DNA from: Gloeomargaritales cyanobacterium VI4D9
Lineage (GTDB): Bacteria; Cyanobacteriota; Cyanobacteriia; Gloeomargaritales; Gloeomargaritaceae
Reading direction: 5' to 3'
DNA: 64,000 bases
Assembly: GCA_927797885.1 (NCBI GenBank)
Contig: OV696605.1
Coordinates: 781,157-845,156, forward strand
The notes under the pieces are model-generated. The model was not told the DNA's origin, searched no databases, and saw only the letters and a program-made list of their open reading frames with translations. The position numbers were made by a program, and so were the translations under genes. This document shows, piece after piece, positions 5,097 through 53,582 of this stretch; the first letter of the stretch is position 1, and each line of letters opens with the position of its first letter.

Positions 5097-6204
5097 CAGA
5101 AGTGTTGAAAGGTAGGTAAAGGCAGAAAAAGAGGGGTCAAAATATGGTATTCTAATTCATATAAACCAAAACATGAAACAACTATGAAATTCAATTCTTT
5201 TCCCGGGATTGTCAAATTTTTACTCAAAGACCTGCCAACTAATGATTATCCAGTTCTAAATTCTCGCTTATTTTGTTCAATCTGGTTTGCTGGCATTTTA
5301 GACAAAGGAATCAACAGTTTACGGGACTTATTTTACCAATTAAATCATGCGGGCATTAAGGTTGACTTATCCACGTTTTCTAAGGCGAACAAGACAAGAG
5401 ACCCACAAATTTTTATGCATCTTTATCATAAATTATTGCATTATATTGAGGAAGCTCATCCTGAAAAGAGGTTGGTTTTATGTCCTTTTGATGCTACCGT
5501 AATACCGCTGATGAGTAAGTTATTTTGGCTCCAAGGCTATCGCCAAGTAAAGTTAATAACCACTTTGAATCAAGATACGAAATCTACTGGTCATTTAATT
5601 GTTAGTCCTGGACAGGCACATGAGATTAATTTTGGTGAAGATATTGTGAAAATGCTACCGGAAAATGGAGTCGCAGTCGGGGATAGAGGGTTTTGCAGTC
5701 ACAAAGTATTTGAACAATTTATCGAAAATGATGCCCTTTTTATTATCCGTATTAAGTCGAATTGGAAATGGGATGAAAACTATCATATCACCACAGAACG
5801 AGGTAAGGCGAGAGTAGTTTGTTTTGGCAATGTTCAACAGAAAGTAGACTATTATTTAGCTACCAATATTCCTGAGGATGTAATGAGTAATGAAGAGATA
5901 GGGGAAGCCTATAGACAACGCTGGGCGATAGAGGTACTATGGAAATTTCTAAAGATGAACTTAAAGCTCGATAAAATGATGAGTAAAAATTTGAATGGAA
6001 TTACCATTCAAATTTATGTAATTTTAATAGTTTACTTGATATTGCAACTGTTAAAAGTTCCACGGATGTACGGAAGTAAATTGGCAGATAAGTTCCGATA
6101 TATACAAATCTTAATACGGCAGGAGTGGAATTTTGTCCATTGGCTCAATCGGGTCGTCCCACGCCTAAATATGTAAAGTTTTATTGCAGGATTCAACACT
6201 TGTG
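5097..6204 (+). mobile_element. IS4-type insertion sequence, copy 1 (1108 bp)
   Basis: The ends are CAGAAGTGTTGAA and TTCAACACTTGTG, imperfect inverted repeats, with one transposase gene inside. The flanking direct repeat AGGATTGCT (5088-5096 and 6205-6213) is a 9-bp target duplication cut from the end of a MITE-1. Two more copies encoding the same protein lie at 51078-52185 and 52475-53582. Confidence 0.95.
5184..6176 (+). CDS. IS4-family DDE transposase (copy 1)
   Basis: The 330-residue transposase catalyses cut-and-paste movement of its element. The DDE triad can be placed: first Asp in FDATVIPL, second in GDRGF, and Glu in the IS4 signature Y-x2-R-x3-E-x6-K, present here as YRQRWAIEVLWKFLK. 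Length and the 9-bp target duplication fit the IS4 superfamily (IS10-like duplication length). The gene appears intact. It is clearly more AT-rich than neighbouring host genes. The encoded protein is identical in all three window copies, which implies recent spread. Confidence 0.93.
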   Translation: MKFNSFPGIVKFLLKDLPTNDYPVLNSRLFCSIWFAGILDKGINSLRDLFYQLNHAGIKVDLSTFSKANKTRDPQIFMHLYHKLLHYIEEAHPEKRLVLCPFDATVIPLMSKLFWLQGYRQVKLITTLNQDTKSTGHLIVSPGQAHEINFGEDIVKMLPENGVAVGDRGFCSHKVFEQFIENDALFIIRIKSNWKWDENYHITTERGKARVVCFGNVQQKVDYYLATNIPEDVMSNEEIGEAYRQRWAIEVLWKFLKMNLKLDKMMSKNLNGITIQIYVILIVYLILQLLKVPRMYGSKLADKFRYIQILIRQEWNFVHWLNRVVPRLNM

Positions 6205-9340: not shown

Positions 9341-11293
9341 ATGGCAGTGCGTAGTGCGGCGGCTCCCCCCACCCCTTGGTCAAAGACCTTGGCGGAACCG
9401 CAGATTGACCCGACGGCTTTTGTCCATTCGTTCTCCAACATCATTGGGGATGTGCGGATTGGGGCGGAGGTGTTGGTGGCACCGGGGACTTCGATTCGTG
9501 CCGATGAGGGGAGTCCGTTTTATATCGGGGCGGGAAGCAATGTGCAGGATGGGGTGATCATCCACGGTCTGGAGCAGGGACGGGTGACGGGGGATGATGG
9601 GCAAGCCTATTCCGTGTGGATTGGCGAGGACAGTTCGATTACCCACGGGGTGTTGGTGCATGGACCGGCTTATGTGGGCAAAAATTGCTTCATCGGTTTT
9701 CGTTCCACCATCTTCAACGCCCGGGTGAATGATGGCTGTATCGTGATGATGCACTGTCTGATCCAGGATGTGGAAATCCCGGCGGGGCGGTATGTGGCTT
9801 CCGGGAGCGTGATCACGACCCAACAGCAGGCGGACCGGCTCCCACCGGTGAGTACGGAGGATGTGGCGTTTGCCCAGCACGTGGTGGGGATCAACGATGC
9901 CCTGCGGGCGGGGTATCGCTGTGCCGCCAATATTGAATGTATTGCTCCCCTCAAACAAGGAATGTCTATGGGTAATGGCAGTAATGGCTATGGGGGACGC
10001 ACCCGGTTGGCTCCCCAGGTGGTGGCGCAGGTGCAACAGTGGTTGAGCCAGGGGTATCGGATTGGCACGGAACACGCGGACGAACGGCGGTTCAAGACCA
10101 GTTCCTGGCGCAGTTGCAGTCCGATTGCGGCGACCCACCTGCCGGAGGTGATCCAGGCGTTGGAAGCCTGTTTGCAGGAACACGAGGGGGAATACGTGCG
10201 GTTGTTGGGGATTGACCCCAAGGCGAAAAGACGGGTGGGAGAGCAGGTGATTCAACGCCCGGGGGATAGGCTCACCGCCGCCCCCTCCCATGCCTTTACG
10301 GCATCGGCTTCATCCGCATCACCTGCCTCGGCGACTCCCGGAAGCCCTAAAACCCAGGTGACCAACAGTTCCCTAGCACCCGACCTCACCCAGCAGGTGC
10401 GGCAGTGGTTGGGGCAGGGCTATCGCATTGGGGCAGAGGTGGCGGACCCCCGGCGGTTCAAGACCAGTTCTTGGGTGAGTGCGAGTTTGCCTGCCTCTAG
10501 GAATGAATACGAGGTGGTGGCGGCGATTGAAGCCCTTTTGAGTGAATCAAAGGGGGATTATGTGCGGTTGATTGCCATTGACCCGACGGCAAAAAAACGG
10601 GTGAGTGAACAGATTATCCAGCGTCCCCAGGGGAGTCCCACCCCCACAACGACCCGGACGACGACCTTTGCCGCCAGTGCCACTGGTTCTGGGGCGAACC
10701 CTGCGGTTGGGACGATGGGGCAACAGGTGCGCCAATGGCTCATACAGGGGTATCGCATCGGGGCGGAGGTGGCGGACCCCCGCCGGTTTAAGACCAGTTC
10801 CTGGCTGAGTGTGAGTTTGCCCAGCAGTAGCCATGAGGGAGAAATCACGGCGGCGATTGAGAACCTCCTGCGGGAATCCCCAGGGGATTATGTGCGTTTG
10901 ATTGCCATTGACCCGAAATCCAAACGGCGGGTGAGTGAGCAGATTATCCAGCGTCCCCAGGGGGCGACCCCACCCACTCCGGCACCAGCCAGCAGTCCCA
11001 CGGTTAACCCGACGGCAACGGCTCCCGCCAGTGGGTTAGATGGGGCGGTGGTCGCCAAGGTGCGGCAGTTGCTCGCCCAGGGCTATCGGGTGGGGGCGGA
11101 ACACGCTGATACGCGCCGGTTCAAGACCGGTTCCTGGTTGGGGTGTGCCCTGCCCGCCAGCCAACGGGAGGGGGAGGTTTTATCCGCCCTCGCCAGCGTC
11201 CTCCGGGATTACCAGGGGGAATACGTGCGCCTGCTGGGCATTGACCCCAAGGCGAAACGGCGGGTCCTCGAACACATTATCCAGAAGCCCTGA
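9341..11293 (+). CDS. ccmM: Carboxysome assembly protein CcmM (gamma-carbonic anhydrase plus four SSUL modules)
   Basis: CcmM organises Rubisco inside the beta-carboxysome. The first ~200 residues form a left-handed beta-helix gamma-carbonic anhydrase domain; four Rubisco-small-subunit-like modules joined by Pro/Ala/Thr/Ser linkers follow. Counting from the ATG at 9341 (GAGG at 9330-9333), candidate zinc ligands are His75, His102 and His107, and a Cys194/Cys200 pair is present. These match the residue set of the active Thermosynechococcus enzyme as I recall it, so an active carbonic anhydrase is predicted. The first SSUL module has two Cys 18 residues apart, the redox pair known from Synechococcus; modules 2 and 3 lack Cys. 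An upstream ATG at 9335 is badly spaced from its ribosome site. Confidence 0.95.
9957..9970 (+). promoter_or_regulatory. Internal ribosome site and start for short CcmM
   Basis: Inside ccmM, AAGGA (9957-9961) lies 6 nt before an in-frame ATG (9968-9970), just after the carbonic anhydrase domain and before the first SSUL module. Initiation here would make a ~442-residue protein of SSUL modules only, equivalent to the M35/M58-type short CcmM known in other beta-cyanobacteria. An alternative in-frame ATG at 9962 is too close to the site. Confidence 0.6.
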
Positions 11294-18820: not shown

Positions 18821-18923
18821 ATCTTGGTAATCCTAAATGAGAATAGAACACAAGTCACAGGGACACCACCCCCATTCTTGGTTCCAGGAAATTTTTGTTC
18901 ATTAACCAAATAGAATTGCTATA
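18821..18923. mobile_element. Degenerate MITE-1 copy
   Basis: The left end is decayed (TTGGTAATCCTAAATGAG) and the right end reads TAGAATTGCTATA, with a mutated core. It lies between the LptD-like gene and the convergent secreted-protein cluster. Confidence 0.65.
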
Positions 18924-19017: not shown

Positions 19018-19548
19018 TTAGTGCAGTTTGTACACCTGCATTACTAAAAAGTTACGCTCCACATTACCCGTACTGGGCACCGATAGGGGGTTTTGCCAAC
19101 CATCGGGAACCTCATCTATCATCGGACCTCCACCGAAATACAGTACGGATAGGTAGCCCTTTTTGCCCTTGGCGTTATCGGGAACCGTCAAGGAATAGTT
19201 ACAGCCCAGACCCAGGTGGTTGCCGGTCATGTTCACCTTCACTGGGTCAAAGCCCTCGCCTGGGAATTTGGACTTTTTGGGTTGGTTGGGATCACTGTCT
19301 GATAGCATAACCTGCATCAAACTGCACTTCGGTGCACCCAATTGACTTAGGTTTTTCAGTTGCTGTGGGTCTTTCACCGTGATTGTCCCGCTGATGGTGG
19401 TTCCGAATTTGAGGTCCTTGGGAATGCCTCTCACGTCGGGTGGAGGCATGGAGGGCATCTCTTTGGGTTTCGGCACCTGTTGGGCTTGGACTGCCAGCGG
19501 GGCAACGGTCGTCAAGGCTAAAACTAAAGGCAAGAAACGCAGATTCAT
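19018..19548 (-). CDS. Secreted protein, tandem paralogue A
   Basis: A 176-residue exported protein with signal peptide MNLRFLPLVLALTTVAPLAV, cleaved near AQA/QQ. The mature part shares with the next two genes a Pro/Lys-rich N-terminus, a GTTISGTIT segment, a Cys in PKCS, and TGNHLGLGCNYSLTVPD with a second Cys. The two Cys could form a disulfide. An AGGAG ribosome site precedes the start. I do not recognise the family. The last of three tandem copies in transcription order, it carries an insertion (SLMQVMLSDSDPNQPKK) different from the others. Confidence 0.85.
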   Translation of the reverse strand: MNLRFLPLVLALTTVAPLAVQAQQVPKPKEMPSMPPPDVRGIPKDLKFGTTISGTITVKDPQQLKNLSQLGAPKCSLMQVMLSDSDPNQPKKSKFPGEGFDPVKVNMTGNHLGLGCNYSLTVPDNAKGKKGYLSVLYFGGGPMIDEVPDGWQNPLSVPSTGNVERNFLVMQVYKLH

Positions 19549-19590
19549 AGAAAACTCCTGAAGGGTAAGTAACGTGAAGCAGGTTTGGGG

Positions 19591-20118
19591 TTACTTAATG
19601 TCAATTACATTCACCACAAAGTTACGCCATGTGCCTATCATATATGGCACGGGCATGGGGTTTTGCCAACCTTTGGGAGAGACAACCAAAGACTGGTGTG
19701 GACTGGCAACCCACAAATAACCCTGTTGACCCTTGGCAGTGTCAGGAATTGTCAGAGCAAAACTACAGCCTAGACCCAAGTGGTTGCCGGTCGCCTGAAC
19801 TGTCACCGGGGCATAACTGTCTGGGAATTTAGACTTTTGGGGTTCACCGGGAACTTGCACAATCACATTACTGGGATTACTTTGCTGTAGCGTGACCTTG
19901 AAGTCACGGCACTTTAGGAGACCAAATTCCTTAGTTACTTTTGCCAAGTCGTTGGCTGTGATCGTACCTTTGAGAACCTTTCCCACTTCGAGGTCTTTGG
20001 GAGTAACTCTCAGGTCAGGTGCGGGCATTTCATTGGGTTTCGGCATCTGTTGAGCTTGGACTGCCAGCGGGGCAACGGTCGTCAAAGCCAACACCAAAGG
20101 TAAGAAACGCAGATTCAT
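19591..20118 (-). CDS. Secreted protein, tandem paralogue B
   Basis: A 175-residue exported protein with nearly the same signal peptide as its neighbours. The frame opens further upstream, but the ATG at 20118 has a strong AGGAG ribosome site and starts the signal peptide, so it is the true start. The mature protein has the shared GTITANDLAKV, KCRDFKVTLQQSNPSNV, PGEPQKSKFPDSYAPV and TGNHLGLGCSFALTIPD blocks. Long stretches are nearly identical in DNA to paralogue C, pointing to recent duplication or gene conversion. Confidence 0.85.
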   Translation of the reverse strand: MNLRFLPLVLALTTVAPLAVQAQQMPKPNEMPAPDLRVTPKDLEVGKVLKGTITANDLAKVTKEFGLLKCRDFKVTLQQSNPSNVIVQVPGEPQKSKFPDSYAPVTVQATGNHLGLGCSFALTIPDTAKGQQGYLWVASPHQSLVVSPKGWQNPMPVPYMIGTWRNFVVNVIDIK

Positions 20119-20161
20119 AGAAAACTCCTGAAGGATAAGTAAAGTGCAGAGGGTTTGGCGG

Positions 20162-20707
20162 TTACTTGATGTCAAATTCACTCACGCCCACGACAAAGTT
20201 ACGTCCTACACTGCCAGAAGTCGGAACCGGCATGGGATTTTGCCAACCCTGGGGAGATGTTACTAAGAGGTCTCCTTGCTTGTTTTCAACCCCTTTGAGC
20301 ACCACCAGATAACCCTGTTTACCCTTGGCTTTATCGGGAACCGTCAGGGAATAGTTACAGCCCAGACCCAAGTGGTTGCCGGTCGCCTGAACTGTCACCG
20401 GGGCATAACTGTCTGGGAATTTAGACTTTTGGGGTTCACCGGGAACTTGCACAATCACATTACTGGGATTACTTTCCTGTAACGTCACCTGGAACTGACT
20501 GCACTTCACCTGACCAAATTTCTTAGTCACATACGCCAGGTCTTTCGCCGTGATCGTCCCGCTGATGGTCGTTCCCATTTTGATTGGGGGAATCTTTTGG
20601 AAGTCAGGTGCAGGCATTTCCTGAGGGTTCGGCATCCGTTGGGCGTGGACTGCCAGCGGGGCAACGGTCGTCAAAGCTAACACCAAAGGTAAGAAACGCA
20701 AATTCAT
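20162..20707 (-). CDS. Secreted protein, tandem paralogue C
   Basis: The first of the three tandem genes in transcription order, 181 residues, with signal peptide and start at 20707 behind AGGAG. Shared blocks are GTTISGTITAKDLAYV, KCSQFQVTLQESNPSNV and TGNHLGLGCNYSLTVPD. Each gene has its own copy of the region just upstream of the start (same ribosome site and spacing), so the unit of duplication included the leader. The function is unknown; a cell-surface or periplasmic role is inferred only from the signal peptide. Confidence 0.85.
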   Translation of the reverse strand: MNLRFLPLVLALTTVAPLAVHAQRMPNPQEMPAPDFQKIPPIKMGTTISGTITAKDLAYVTKKFGQVKCSQFQVTLQESNPSNVIVQVPGEPQKSKFPDSYAPVTVQATGNHLGLGCNYSLTVPDKAKGKQGYLVVLKGVENKQGDLLVTSPQGWQNPMPVPTSGSVGRNFVVGVSEFDIK

Positions 20708-20900
20708 AGAAAACTCCTGAAGGGTAATGAGGTGGTTTAAGAAGCTACAGAATGTAACCTCTATACTTTTCAAATTAACTGATGCAAATGAGGCTGTATA
20801 GGATCAAAAATACTGCCTAGAAGTGATCTCGATCTCTATAACCACTTCAGAAAAAAGCCAGCAAATTTCTAGGTATAAATTACTCCTAAAAATAGCCTAT

Positions 20901-21344
20901 TCAACCGCACCAAAACCCCCGCAACCAATGCCAAAAGTCCCGGATTTTTTGCTCCCAGAAGTAAAACACCTGATCCAACCACTGGAGGAACCGTTCTAGC
21001 CAATGGGGTTCATAACCTTCGGCGACCGATGCCACCTCTAAGGTCGGTTCCGGCAAAACCGGGGCTACCGGCACAATCGGTAAGGCGGGTGCTTCTGGTG
21101 TACCCGGCAATTGTTCCACCGGCGGCGCACCTCGCAAAAGGGGAAACCGGCTGAGTTGTTCCCACAATTTTTTTAACCAACATTGCCACCAAGGGACTGC
21201 AGGCGGGGTGGCAGGCGTTAAAGTCGGTGGTGGCACCGGACGCAACCGCATCCACCGGAACCACTGCCACAATTGCACCCACCCCTGTCTCAGCCGCTGA
21301 GGCATCTGCAACAACCAAGTCATGAGCCAGCTGCGATAGACCAT
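20901..21344 (-). CDS. Tryptophan-rich, proline-rich hypothetical protein
   Basis: A 147-residue frame with 16 Trp. Amphipathic Trp/Arg/Leu-rich segments at both ends (RQGWVQLWQWFRWMRL and WLERFLQWLDQVFYFWEQK) flank a Pro/Val/Ala-rich middle. It could be a peripheral membrane protein. No family is recognised, and coding status rests on length, composition and position between two genes. It could also be a chance frame. Confidence 0.5.
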   Translation of the reverse strand: MVYRSWLMTWLLQMPQRLRQGWVQLWQWFRWMRLRPVPPPTLTPATPPAVPWWQCWLKKLWEQLSRFPLLRGAPPVEQLPGTPEAPALPIVPVAPVLPEPTLEVASVAEGYEPHWLERFLQWLDQVFYFWEQKIRDFWHWLRGFWCG

Positions 21345-25237: not shown

Positions 25238-25357
25238 TATAACAATTTTAACTGAGTATAGAATAGCGTTCGCAGGGCACCACCCCGTCCTGGGTTCTCC
25301 AGAATTTTTGTATGCCTACCGCACGCAAACTAACGTTAATCACGTAGGATTGTTATA
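25238..25357. mobile_element. MITE-1 copy (about 120 bp, degenerate left end)
   Basis: The left end reads TATAACAATTTTAACTGAG and the right end TAGGATTGTTATA. It carries the insertion TATGCCTACCGCACGCAAAC of the long MITE-1 form. It is followed one base later by a MITE-2. Confidence 0.7.
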
Positions 25358-25358
25358 T

Positions 25359-25489
25359 GGGCACTTCTAAAAACAAGTCGCAGCCCCCATTTTAGTTCTC
25401 GATAGCCTGCGTGGCGTAGCCATTGATATGGGCATTCTAGCGAAATAAGCGAAATAATCTTCCAGTGGTGGCAATAAATAGAAGTGCCC
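25359..25489. mobile_element. MITE-2 copy (131 bp)
   Basis: The left end is GGGCACTTCTAAAAAC and the right end is AATAAATAGAAGTGCCC. No clear target duplication is visible. It carries a short GCGTGGCGTAGCCAT repeat also seen near 29521 and 53977. Confidence 0.6.
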
Positions 25490-27886: not shown

Positions 27887-28025
27887 TATAGCAATCCTAA
27901 ATAAAAATGGAACAGGGTTGCAGGGGCACCGCCCCCGTCAAAGAAGCACCTGCGGTGTAGGGTTCTAGGAAATTTCTGTATGCCTACGGCACGCAGGCTA
28001 ACGTTAATCAAATCGGATTGCTATA
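27887..28025. mobile_element. MITE-1 copy (139 bp, long form)
   Basis: It starts TATAGCAATCCTAAATAAA and ends TCGGATTGCTATA. It has the GGGGCACCGCCCCCG core and both extra blocks of the long form (AAGCACCTGCGGTGTA and GCCTACGGCACGCAGGCTAA). Confidence 0.85.
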
Positions 28026-28105
28026 TTAGGGAAACAACTATGGCAATCCTAAATGAGAGCGGCGGTCGCCCTTGGCTCTGGGGAATTACTGTTCATTAAT
28101 CAAAT

Positions 28106-51077: not shown

Positions 51078-52185
51078 CAGAAGTGTTGAAAGGTAGGTAA
51101 AGGCAGAAAAAGAGGGGTCAAAATATGGTATTCTAATTCATATAAACCAAAACATGAAACAACTATGAAATTCAATTCTTTTCCCGGGATTGTCAAATTT
51201 TTACTCAAAGACCTGCCAACTAATGATTATCCAGTTCTAAATTCTCGCTTATTTTGTTCAATCTGGTTTGCTGGCATTTTAGACAAAGGAATCAACAGTT
51301 TACGGGACTTATTTTACCAATTAAATCATGCGGGCATTAAGGTTGACTTATCCACGTTTTCTAAGGCGAACAAGACAAGAGACCCACAAATTTTTATGCA
51401 TCTTTATCATAAATTATTGCATTATATTGAGGAAGCTCATCCTGAAAAGAGGTTGGTTTTATGTCCTTTTGATGCTACCGTAATACCGCTGATGAGTAAG
51501 TTATTTTGGCTCCAAGGCTATCGCCAAGTAAAGTTAATAACCACTTTGAATCAAGATACGAAATCTACTGGTCATTTAATTGTTAGTCCTGGACAGGCAC
51601 ATGAGATTAATTTTGGTGAAGATATTGTGAAAATGCTACCGGAAAATGGAGTCGCAGTCGGGGATAGAGGGTTTTGCAGTCACAAAGTATTTGAACAATT
51701 TATCGAAAATGATGCCCTTTTTATTATCCGTATTAAGTCGAATTGGAAATGGGATGAAAACTATCATATCACCACAGAACGAGGTAAGGCGAGAGTAGTT
51801 TGTTTTGGCAATGTTCAACAGAAAGTAGACTATTATTTAGCTACCAATATTCCTGAGGATGTAATGAGTAATGAAGAGATAGGGGAAGCCTATAGACAAC
51901 GCTGGGCGATAGAGGTACTATGGAAATTTCTAAAGATGAACTTAAAGCTCGATAAAATGATGAGTAAAAATTTGAATGGAATTACCATTCAAATTTATGT
52001 AATTTTAATAGTTTACTTGATATTGCAACTGTTAAAAGTTCCACGGATGTACGGAAGTAAATTGGCAGATAAGTTCCGATATATACAAATCTTAATACGG
52101 CAGGAGTGGAATTTTGTCCATTGGCTCAATCGGGTCGTCCCACGCCTAAATATGTAAAGTTTTATTGCAGGATTCAACACTTGTG
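51078..52185 (+). mobile_element. IS4-type insertion sequence, copy 2 (1108 bp)
   Basis: The same element as at 5097, with CAGAAGTGTTGAA and TTCAACACTTGTG ends. The target duplication CGGATAACT is perfect at 51069-51077 and 52186-52194. It lies one base from the left end of an IS5-type element. Confidence 0.95.
51165..52157 (+). CDS. IS4-family DDE transposase (copy 2)
   Basis: The protein is identical to the 330-residue transposase at 5184-6176, with the same DDE residues and YREK signature. It appears intact. Confidence 0.93.
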   Translation: MKFNSFPGIVKFLLKDLPTNDYPVLNSRLFCSIWFAGILDKGINSLRDLFYQLNHAGIKVDLSTFSKANKTRDPQIFMHLYHKLLHYIEEAHPEKRLVLCPFDATVIPLMSKLFWLQGYRQVKLITTLNQDTKSTGHLIVSPGQAHEINFGEDIVKMLPENGVAVGDRGFCSHKVFEQFIENDALFIIRIKSNWKWDENYHITTERGKARVVCFGNVQQKVDYYLATNIPEDVMSNEEIGEAYRQRWAIEVLWKFLKMNLKLDKMMSKNLNGITIQIYVILIVYLILQLLKVPRMYGSKLADKFRYIQILIRQEWNFVHWLNRVVPRLNM

Positions 52186-52474: not shown

Positions 52475-53582
52475 CACAAGTGTTGAATCCTGCAATAAAA
52501 CTTTACATATTTAGGCGTGGGACGACCCGATTGAGCCAATGGACAAAATTCCACTCCTGCCGTATTAAGATTTGTATATATCGGAACTTATCTGCCAATT
52601 TACTTCCGTACATCCGTGGAACTTTTAACAGTTGCAATATCAAGTAAACTATTAAAATTACATAAATTTGAATGGTAATTCCATTCAAATTTTTACTCAT
52701 CATTTTATCGAGCTTTAAGTTCATCTTTAGAAATTTCCATAGTACCTCTATCGCCCAGCGTTGTCTATAGGCTTCCCCTATCTCTTCATTACTCATTACA
52801 TCCTCAGGAATATTGGTAGCTAAATAATAGTCTACTTTCTGTTGAACATTGCCAAAACAAACTACTCTCGCCTTACCTCGTTCTGTGGTGATATGATAGT
52901 TTTCATCCCATTTCCAATTCGACTTAATACGGATAATAAAAAGGGCATCATTTTCGATAAATTGTTCAAATACTTTGTGACTGCAAAACCCTCTATCCCC
53001 GACTGCGACTCCATTTTCCGGTAGCATTTTCACAATATCTTCACCAAAATTAATCTCATGTGCCTGTCCAGGACTAACAATTAAATGACCAGTAGATTTC
53101 GTATCTTGATTCAAAGTGGTTATTAACTTTACTTGGCGATAGCCTTGGAGCCAAAATAACTTACTCATCAGCGGTATTACGGTAGCATCAAAAGGACATA
53201 AAACCAACCTCTTTTCAGGATGAGCTTCCTCAATATAATGCAATAATTTATGATAAAGATGCATAAAAATTTGTGGGTCTCTTGTCTTGTTCGCCTTAGA
53301 AAACGTGGATAAGTCAACCTTAATGCCCGCATGATTTAATTGGTAAAATAAGTCCCGTAAACTGTTGATTCCTTTGTCTAAAATGCCAGCAAACCAGATT
53401 GAACAAAATAAGCGAGAATTTAGAACTGGATAATCATTAGTTGGCAGGTCTTTGAGTAAAAATTTGACAATCCCGGGAAAAGAATTGAATTTCATAGTTG
53501 TTTCATGTTTTGGTTTATATGAATTAGAATACCATATTTTGACCCCTCTTTTTCTGCCTTTACCTACCTTTCAACACTTCTG
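52475..53582 (-). mobile_element. IS4-type insertion sequence, copy 3 (1108 bp, inverted)
   Basis: Minus-strand orientation. The target duplication CTTTTGTAT is perfect at 52466-52474 and 53583-53591. It is inserted into the IS427-like element. With copy 2 it forms an inverted pair 289 bp apart, a substrate for inversion. Confidence 0.95.
52503..53495 (-). CDS. IS4-family DDE transposase (copy 3)
   Basis: The protein is identical to the other two copies and apparently intact, on the minus strand. Confidence 0.93.
   Translation of the reverse strand: MKFNSFPGIVKFLLKDLPTNDYPVLNSRLFCSIWFAGILDKGINSLRDLFYQLNHAGIKVDLSTFSKANKTRDPQIFMHLYHKLLHYIEEAHPEKRLVLCPFDATVIPLMSKLFWLQGYRQVKLITTLNQDTKSTGHLIVSPGQAHEINFGEDIVKMLPENGVAVGDRGFCSHKVFEQFIENDALFIIRIKSNWKWDENYHITTERGKARVVCFGNVQQKVDYYLATNIPEDVMSNEEIGEAYRQRWAIEVLWKFLKMNLKLDKMMSKNLNGITIQIYVILIVYLILQLLKVPRMYGSKLADKFRYIQILIRQEWNFVHWLNRVVPRLNM

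Follow-up and report, generated by a model that had tools for sequence, protein, structure and literature searches.

A tandem array of three genes for small exported proteins was found in the window, a stretch of 64,000 nucleotides from Gloeomargaritales cyanobacterium VI4D9. We give a probability of about 0.5 to the reading that the array consists of tandem, probably co-transcribed genes of an uncharacterised family of exported single-domain accessory binding proteins. The genes arose by duplication, carry a common leader and encode proteins with two conserved Cys residues that fit no family model in the databases searched. The family is distributed patchily, its copies have recombined with each other, and it was lost in a relative. 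Overall, the finding is real but modest.

The three genes are arranged head to tail along the minus strand, with gaps of 43 and 42 bp between them. Copy A (20162–20707), the first gene, encodes 181 amino acids with two Cys residues (69 and 117) and was delimited by its open reading frame, the common start and the family alignment. Copy B (19591–20118, minus strand) is the middle gene, with 175 amino acids and 72% identity to A. Copy C (19018–19548, minus strand), the last gene, encodes 176 amino acids, is 61% identical to A over the alignment and is without an 8-residue stretch of the VIVQVPGE type. All copies have an ATGAAT start with CTTCAGGAGTTTTCT before it (positions 20707, 20118 and 19548). 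The AGGAG ribosome site, located by alignment at 20714–20718 (minus strand) for A, is found with the same spacing at 20125–20129 for B and at 19555–19559 for C, within the identical leader CTTCAGGAGTTTTCTATGAAT. Because the ATG is common to all copies and AGGAG precedes it at identical spacing, the starts of A, B and C are fixed; longer open reading frames from GTG or TTG codons begin upstream of the conserved leader. The sequence-only reading had reported three tandem frames here, and their places on the minus strand were confirmed. Its positions 19018, 19591 and 20162 stand and are the stop ends of C, B and A, but its outer end of 20773 belongs to an over-long TTG start.

The signal peptide of A (20642–20707, minus strand), as read from the sequence, comprises about 22 residues, ends with AVHA before Q and is of type I, the lipobox Cys being absent. 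Those of B (20053–20118) and C (19483–19548) on the same strand are nearly identical to it. Going by the gene spacing, A, B and C are likely co-transcribed as one operon; a promoter and terminator scan of the array gave nothing above its shuffles. The GC content of the copies (0.49–0.52) matches that of the window (0.52) and thus gives no compositional sign of recent import. Upstream of the array lies a 147-aa gene outside the family (20901–21344, minus strand), which is a conserved neighbour in the sister species (G003) and in G004.

In-register repeats, three leader matches and the identity of the proteins together settle the common origin of the copies. Repeat families of 283, 136, 99, 45 and 33 nt lie in register in the array, and the other copies show 61–72% protein identity to A. 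The leader sequence occurs three times with 0 mismatches (0.00 expected), in agreement with the near-identical signal peptides and ribosome sites described earlier. A whole-genome search found no further copy in the window genome. None of the three frames is interrupted, each mature protein contains exactly two Cys residues, and both Cys, the GWQNP motif and the block TGNHLGLGC, which had also been pointed out before, are present in every copy. Long near-identical DNA, as claimed for the whole set, exists mainly between A and B in the form of a 112-nt tract, whereas the longest exact matches of B with C (32 nt) and of A with C (29 nt) both fall in the leader. Beyond the leader and outside the 112-nt tract, A and B have about 60–75% nucleotide identity.

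This tract (20364–20475 in A, minus strand) is identical to 19772–19883 in B, and 0 of 20000 column shuffles reached a run of 112. As judged from the sequences, it is a recent gene conversion between A and B. A further exchange is visible in the sister species. There, one gene occupies the locus of the array, as shown by 96% identity on the upstream side, starting at 20834, and by the sequence that follows copy C on the downstream side. The 5′ flank and the first third of this gene are A-like (24/30 informative sites), while in the remainder 109 of 115 informative sites match C and 6 match A. The switch from A to C lies inside the short identical stretch ATCACGG (20548–20554 in A, 19377–19383 in C, minus strand) and was reached in 0 of 5000 permutations. 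The VIVQVPGE stretch of A and B has a counterpart in outgroups (G005, Leptolyngbyaceae-like) and is missing in C and in the gene of the sister species. Therefore, most likely both types were present in the common ancestor and the sister species lost the middle of the array by unequal crossover; an expansion in the window genome from a single gene like that of the sister species is the less simple reading. The 'central insertion' noted before, carried by A and B, is found in outgroup sequences as well, so that a deletion in C explains it better. The array is a clean case of contraction with a readable crossover point, and this A/C crossover is its most distinctive feature.

Pairwise dN/dS values between A, B and C are 0.39–0.46, without an excess of non-synonymous change that would indicate positive selection. 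C compared to its relative in the sister species gives 0.28, and neighbouring genes give 0.02–0.17. The family evolves faster than its neighbouring genes, yet under purifying constraint, and the values for the paralogues are compatible with simple relaxed constraint. Hence, of the diversification proposed from the sequence, the recombination of the copies and the differences of their C-terminal parts stand, but diversifying selection is not borne out by these dN/dS values.

The higher dN/dS of the paralogues would also be expected if the array were a passing consequence of duplication, in which a dispensable gene exists in relaxed, nearly neutral copies and gains no function from their number. 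The single copy in all other genomes with an intact gene and the remnant or fragments in G004 and G001 agree with this. Nevertheless three frames have stayed intact, each with both Cys and GWQNP, at a dN/dS well under 1, and we consider this explanation rather unlikely. The conversion tract, the A/C chimera and the variable C-terminal loops may also mean that the array serves as a store from which recombination draws variants of a selected, surface-exposed protein, in the manner of antigenic or phage-receptor variation. Such a role is very improbable: non-synonymous change is not in excess, silent cassettes are absent, there are just three copies and no more than two recombination events were inferred. 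Hardly more probable is the reading that, in this early-branching cyanobacterium, the tandem array diversifies an exported binding protein through recombination, with conversion and unequal crossover giving chimeric single genes in sister species.

Searches of Pfam, NCBIfam and PHROGs gave no convincing model for the family, the PDB contained no sequence match, and a literature search found nothing on this protein. The earlier statement that no family could be recognised thus holds; membership in a defined family was not found. A Pfam match to Zn-ribbon_GIR1 (E 1.4e-4, 22 bits versus a cut-off of 26) covers 22 residues in 2 of 18 members, and those to CUB_2 and Keratin are short, below cut-off and restricted to one or two members; all three were rejected as chance. 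An endolysin match in PHROGs (E 0.03, one member) was likewise rejected. We also rejected a phage or plasmid origin, since copy A had no tblastn match in either collection and no viral-contig relative was found.

The array proteins have the features of an orphan family: a signal peptide, a Cys pair with GC.Y...VP, a GW.NP-type motif and one domain. As had been anticipated, the two Cys are conserved; they are kept in nearly all relatives, down to about 20–30% identity and including Thermosynechococcus-like and Nostocaceae-like ones. Nearer relatives retain the two Cys together with GC.Y...VP and P.GW.NP-type motifs, the most distant ones the two Cys and the GC.Y segment. A single Trp is invariant in the family alignment. 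Neither lipobox, sorting signal nor donor-strand extension was seen in the sequences, and inspection by eye revealed no LPXTG. We regard the array as an uncharacterised cyanobacterial family of exported single-domain proteins without a database model, whose probable fold class is common and whose tandem duplication is ordinary.

AlphaFold models of copy A and of the core of copy C were built with five sequences. Both are of low confidence (pLDDT 60.5 for A and 58.7 for the C core) and all-beta, with nearly the same strand order. Their structural neighbours comprise the putative adhesin 5cag (Z 7.5 and 7.0), Cna-B-type pilins (sandwich at Z 5.4–6.7), PA1324, DUF3823/DUF4876 and also intradiol dioxygenases; no VIA Z value reaches 8, and scores this low may reflect nothing beyond a common arrangement. 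In structural classification these neighbours and CBM20 belong largely to the prealbumin-like class. Because all Z values are <8, where common arrangements abound, the matches suggest a fold class and not homology. The models support a prealbumin-like beta-sandwich for the mature part but do not prove it. Antibody domains were also matched, which we put down to the generic nature of the sandwich. Cna-B/SpaA domains, carboxypeptidase-regulatory-like domains, Bacteroides adhesins (5cag), DUF3823/DUF4876 and PA1324 would have the same general prealbumin-like sandwich as the modelled array proteins and likewise a secreted or surface setting, but differ from them in that Z is <8 and sequence identity 5–15%. 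The proposed extracellular, disulfide-stabilised fold gains support from the co-conservation of the Cys residues, the signal peptide and the two low-confidence all-beta models.

The low-confidence model of copy C also aligns over the full CBM20 domain (PF00686, for instance the C-terminal domain of cyclodextrin glycosyltransferase) with a Foldseek E of 2.9e-3, probability 1.00 and TMq 0.45; VIA gives Z 6–7 and an rmsd of 3.2–3.8 over about 90 residues. In GWQNP, the invariant Trp precedes a hairpin and the last strand; its place presumably corresponds roughly to that of the Trp in the WE.G.N motif of CBM20. In contrast to CBM20, the array proteins are stand-alone exported proteins with a Cys pair and only one invariant Trp. 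Binding site 1 of CBM20 has paired Trp residues, against the one invariant Trp of the family alignment. Profile-profile tests were run against cyanobacterial CBM20 and CarboxypepD_reg domains. Membership in CBM20 was rejected on sequence grounds: far from scoring above the Pfam gathering threshold, none of 18 members matched PF00686 even at E up to 1, the window genome has no match to it anywhere, and the hhalign probability was 0.05%. The same applies to CarboxypepD_reg (PF13620), which had no match in 18 members or in the window genome and an hhalign probability of 0.22%.

Under the preferred reading, each protein would be exported by the general secretory route, which its AxA-type signal peptide supports without proving it, and the two Cys probably form one disulfide. 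The product may be a small binding module in the periplasm or at the cell surface, without enzymatic activity, whose ligand would be a glycan or another extracellular one; its function would be accessory rather than essential. A stand-alone exported binding protein would be in keeping with the signal peptide, the one probable disulfide, the presence of just one sandwich domain and the lack of a conserved neighbour. Ligand binding itself is suggested by the modelled fold and by export. As the ligand we would guess a glycan first, since glycan binders, CBM20 among them, turn up repeatedly as structural neighbours of the copy C model. By exchanging segments, the tandem copies of one operon could yield binders that differ slightly, and the array itself could grow, become homogenised and collapse through unequal recombination.

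The best neighbours of the copy A model, namely an adhesin, pilin domains and a secretion pilotin (5cag, 3kpt, 5wec), have the same general sandwich and would also suit a structural or assembly component of the envelope. Such a sandwich, resembling a minor pilin, an adhesin or a pilotin, would bind protein partners instead of a glycan or small ligand. We think this unlikely: the neighbouring genes that were read include no recognisable assembly gene, be it for a pilus, sortase or secretin, and no lipobox, sorting signal or donor-strand extension was seen in the sequences. No conserved neighbour or fused domain pointing to a ligand of the proposed binding protein was found either. Neighbour-based assignment of a function was abandoned, as the contexts differ in each species read (acyl-ACP reductase, TrpA, phosphoglucomutase, CobD and a desaturase, triosephosphate isomerase, an IS1-like transposase).

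Whole-genome searches gave a sequence match in 6 of 7 species of the window's genus, presumably Gloeomargarita. One of these six (G001) has only an N-truncated frame and a broken fragment. G004, which we take to be the carbonate-forming type strain Gloeomargarita lithophora, has a short in-frame remnant (TTGNPLGWGCTFSLPVPS...GGRNFVVNA; L049 9474–9566) just after the conserved 147-aa gene. Its genome-wide score is only E 0.012, and the remnant is credible because of its syntenic position. All 11 genomes of genus g29, taken by us as Thermosynechococcus (G036 as Thermosynechococcus BP-1), contain a homologue, two of them in pieces on draft contigs. Family f16 has 3 close and 1 distant homologue among 42 genomes, and phylum-wide only 12 of 386 genomes match, even with a profile including distant relatives. 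Among the genomes searched, the family is found only in scattered cyanobacteria and is patchy. The triplet occurs only in the window genome; every other genome with an intact gene has a single copy.

The homologues in Thermosynechococcus-like and Leptolyngbyaceae-like genomes, e.g. Leptolyngbyaceae cyanobacterium HOT.MB2.61 (L047), resemble the array proteins in length, signal peptide, Cys pair, GC.Y...VP and GW.NP-type motifs and the IK/IH end, but are single-copy and have other neighbours. The Thermosynechococcus-like members show about 30% identity and lack a central stretch. We did not adopt a simple horizontal transfer in which the Leptolyngbyaceae-like group received the gene from Gloeomargarita; the tree is compatible with it at weak support (51–84), but a topology that joins the Gloeomargarita sequences in one clade is not rejected either (p-AU 0.45).

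With only a remnant in G004 and fragments in G001, the protein appears dispensable in places and thus accessory. It is kept in all 11 genomes of g29 and is therefore not junk, and this retention suggests that it is useful there. The two main genera, presumably Gloeomargarita and Thermosynechococcus, are known carbonate formers. A requirement of the protein for intracellular carbonate formation was rejected, given that the presumed G. lithophora has only the remnant. In one genus, probably a thermophilic one, all sampled genomes have retained this small exported family, which was lost or shuffled in others. If the binding role were true, an extracellular binding protein would be added to lineages whose secreted proteins are little studied.

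The distant members in two Nostocaceae-like genomes (L070 2094–3312, L071 2092–2646) adjoin genes with VSFRS.NF.DRYIRH motifs. These genes look like AbfB/CBM42-type domains, a possible, weak link to glycans.

Synteny between the window genome and the sister species breaks right behind the array (18962 in the window, 8950 in L048). Beyond the break lies a gene for an outer-membrane-like protein of 631 aa in the window and an NdhB-like gene in the sister species. A MITE-like dispersed repeat of about 140 bp is present at 18829–18898, 25238–25373 and 27887–28026 of the window and at 9654–9792 of L048; the copy of the sister species is inserted just upstream of its single gene and matches the three places in the window. 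Furthermore, the window contains three copies of an IS-type transposase frame of 330 aa (5184–6176 and 51165–52157 on the plus strand, 52503–53495 on the minus strand). Their translations look identical, and two of them lie in opposite orientation about 350 bp apart.
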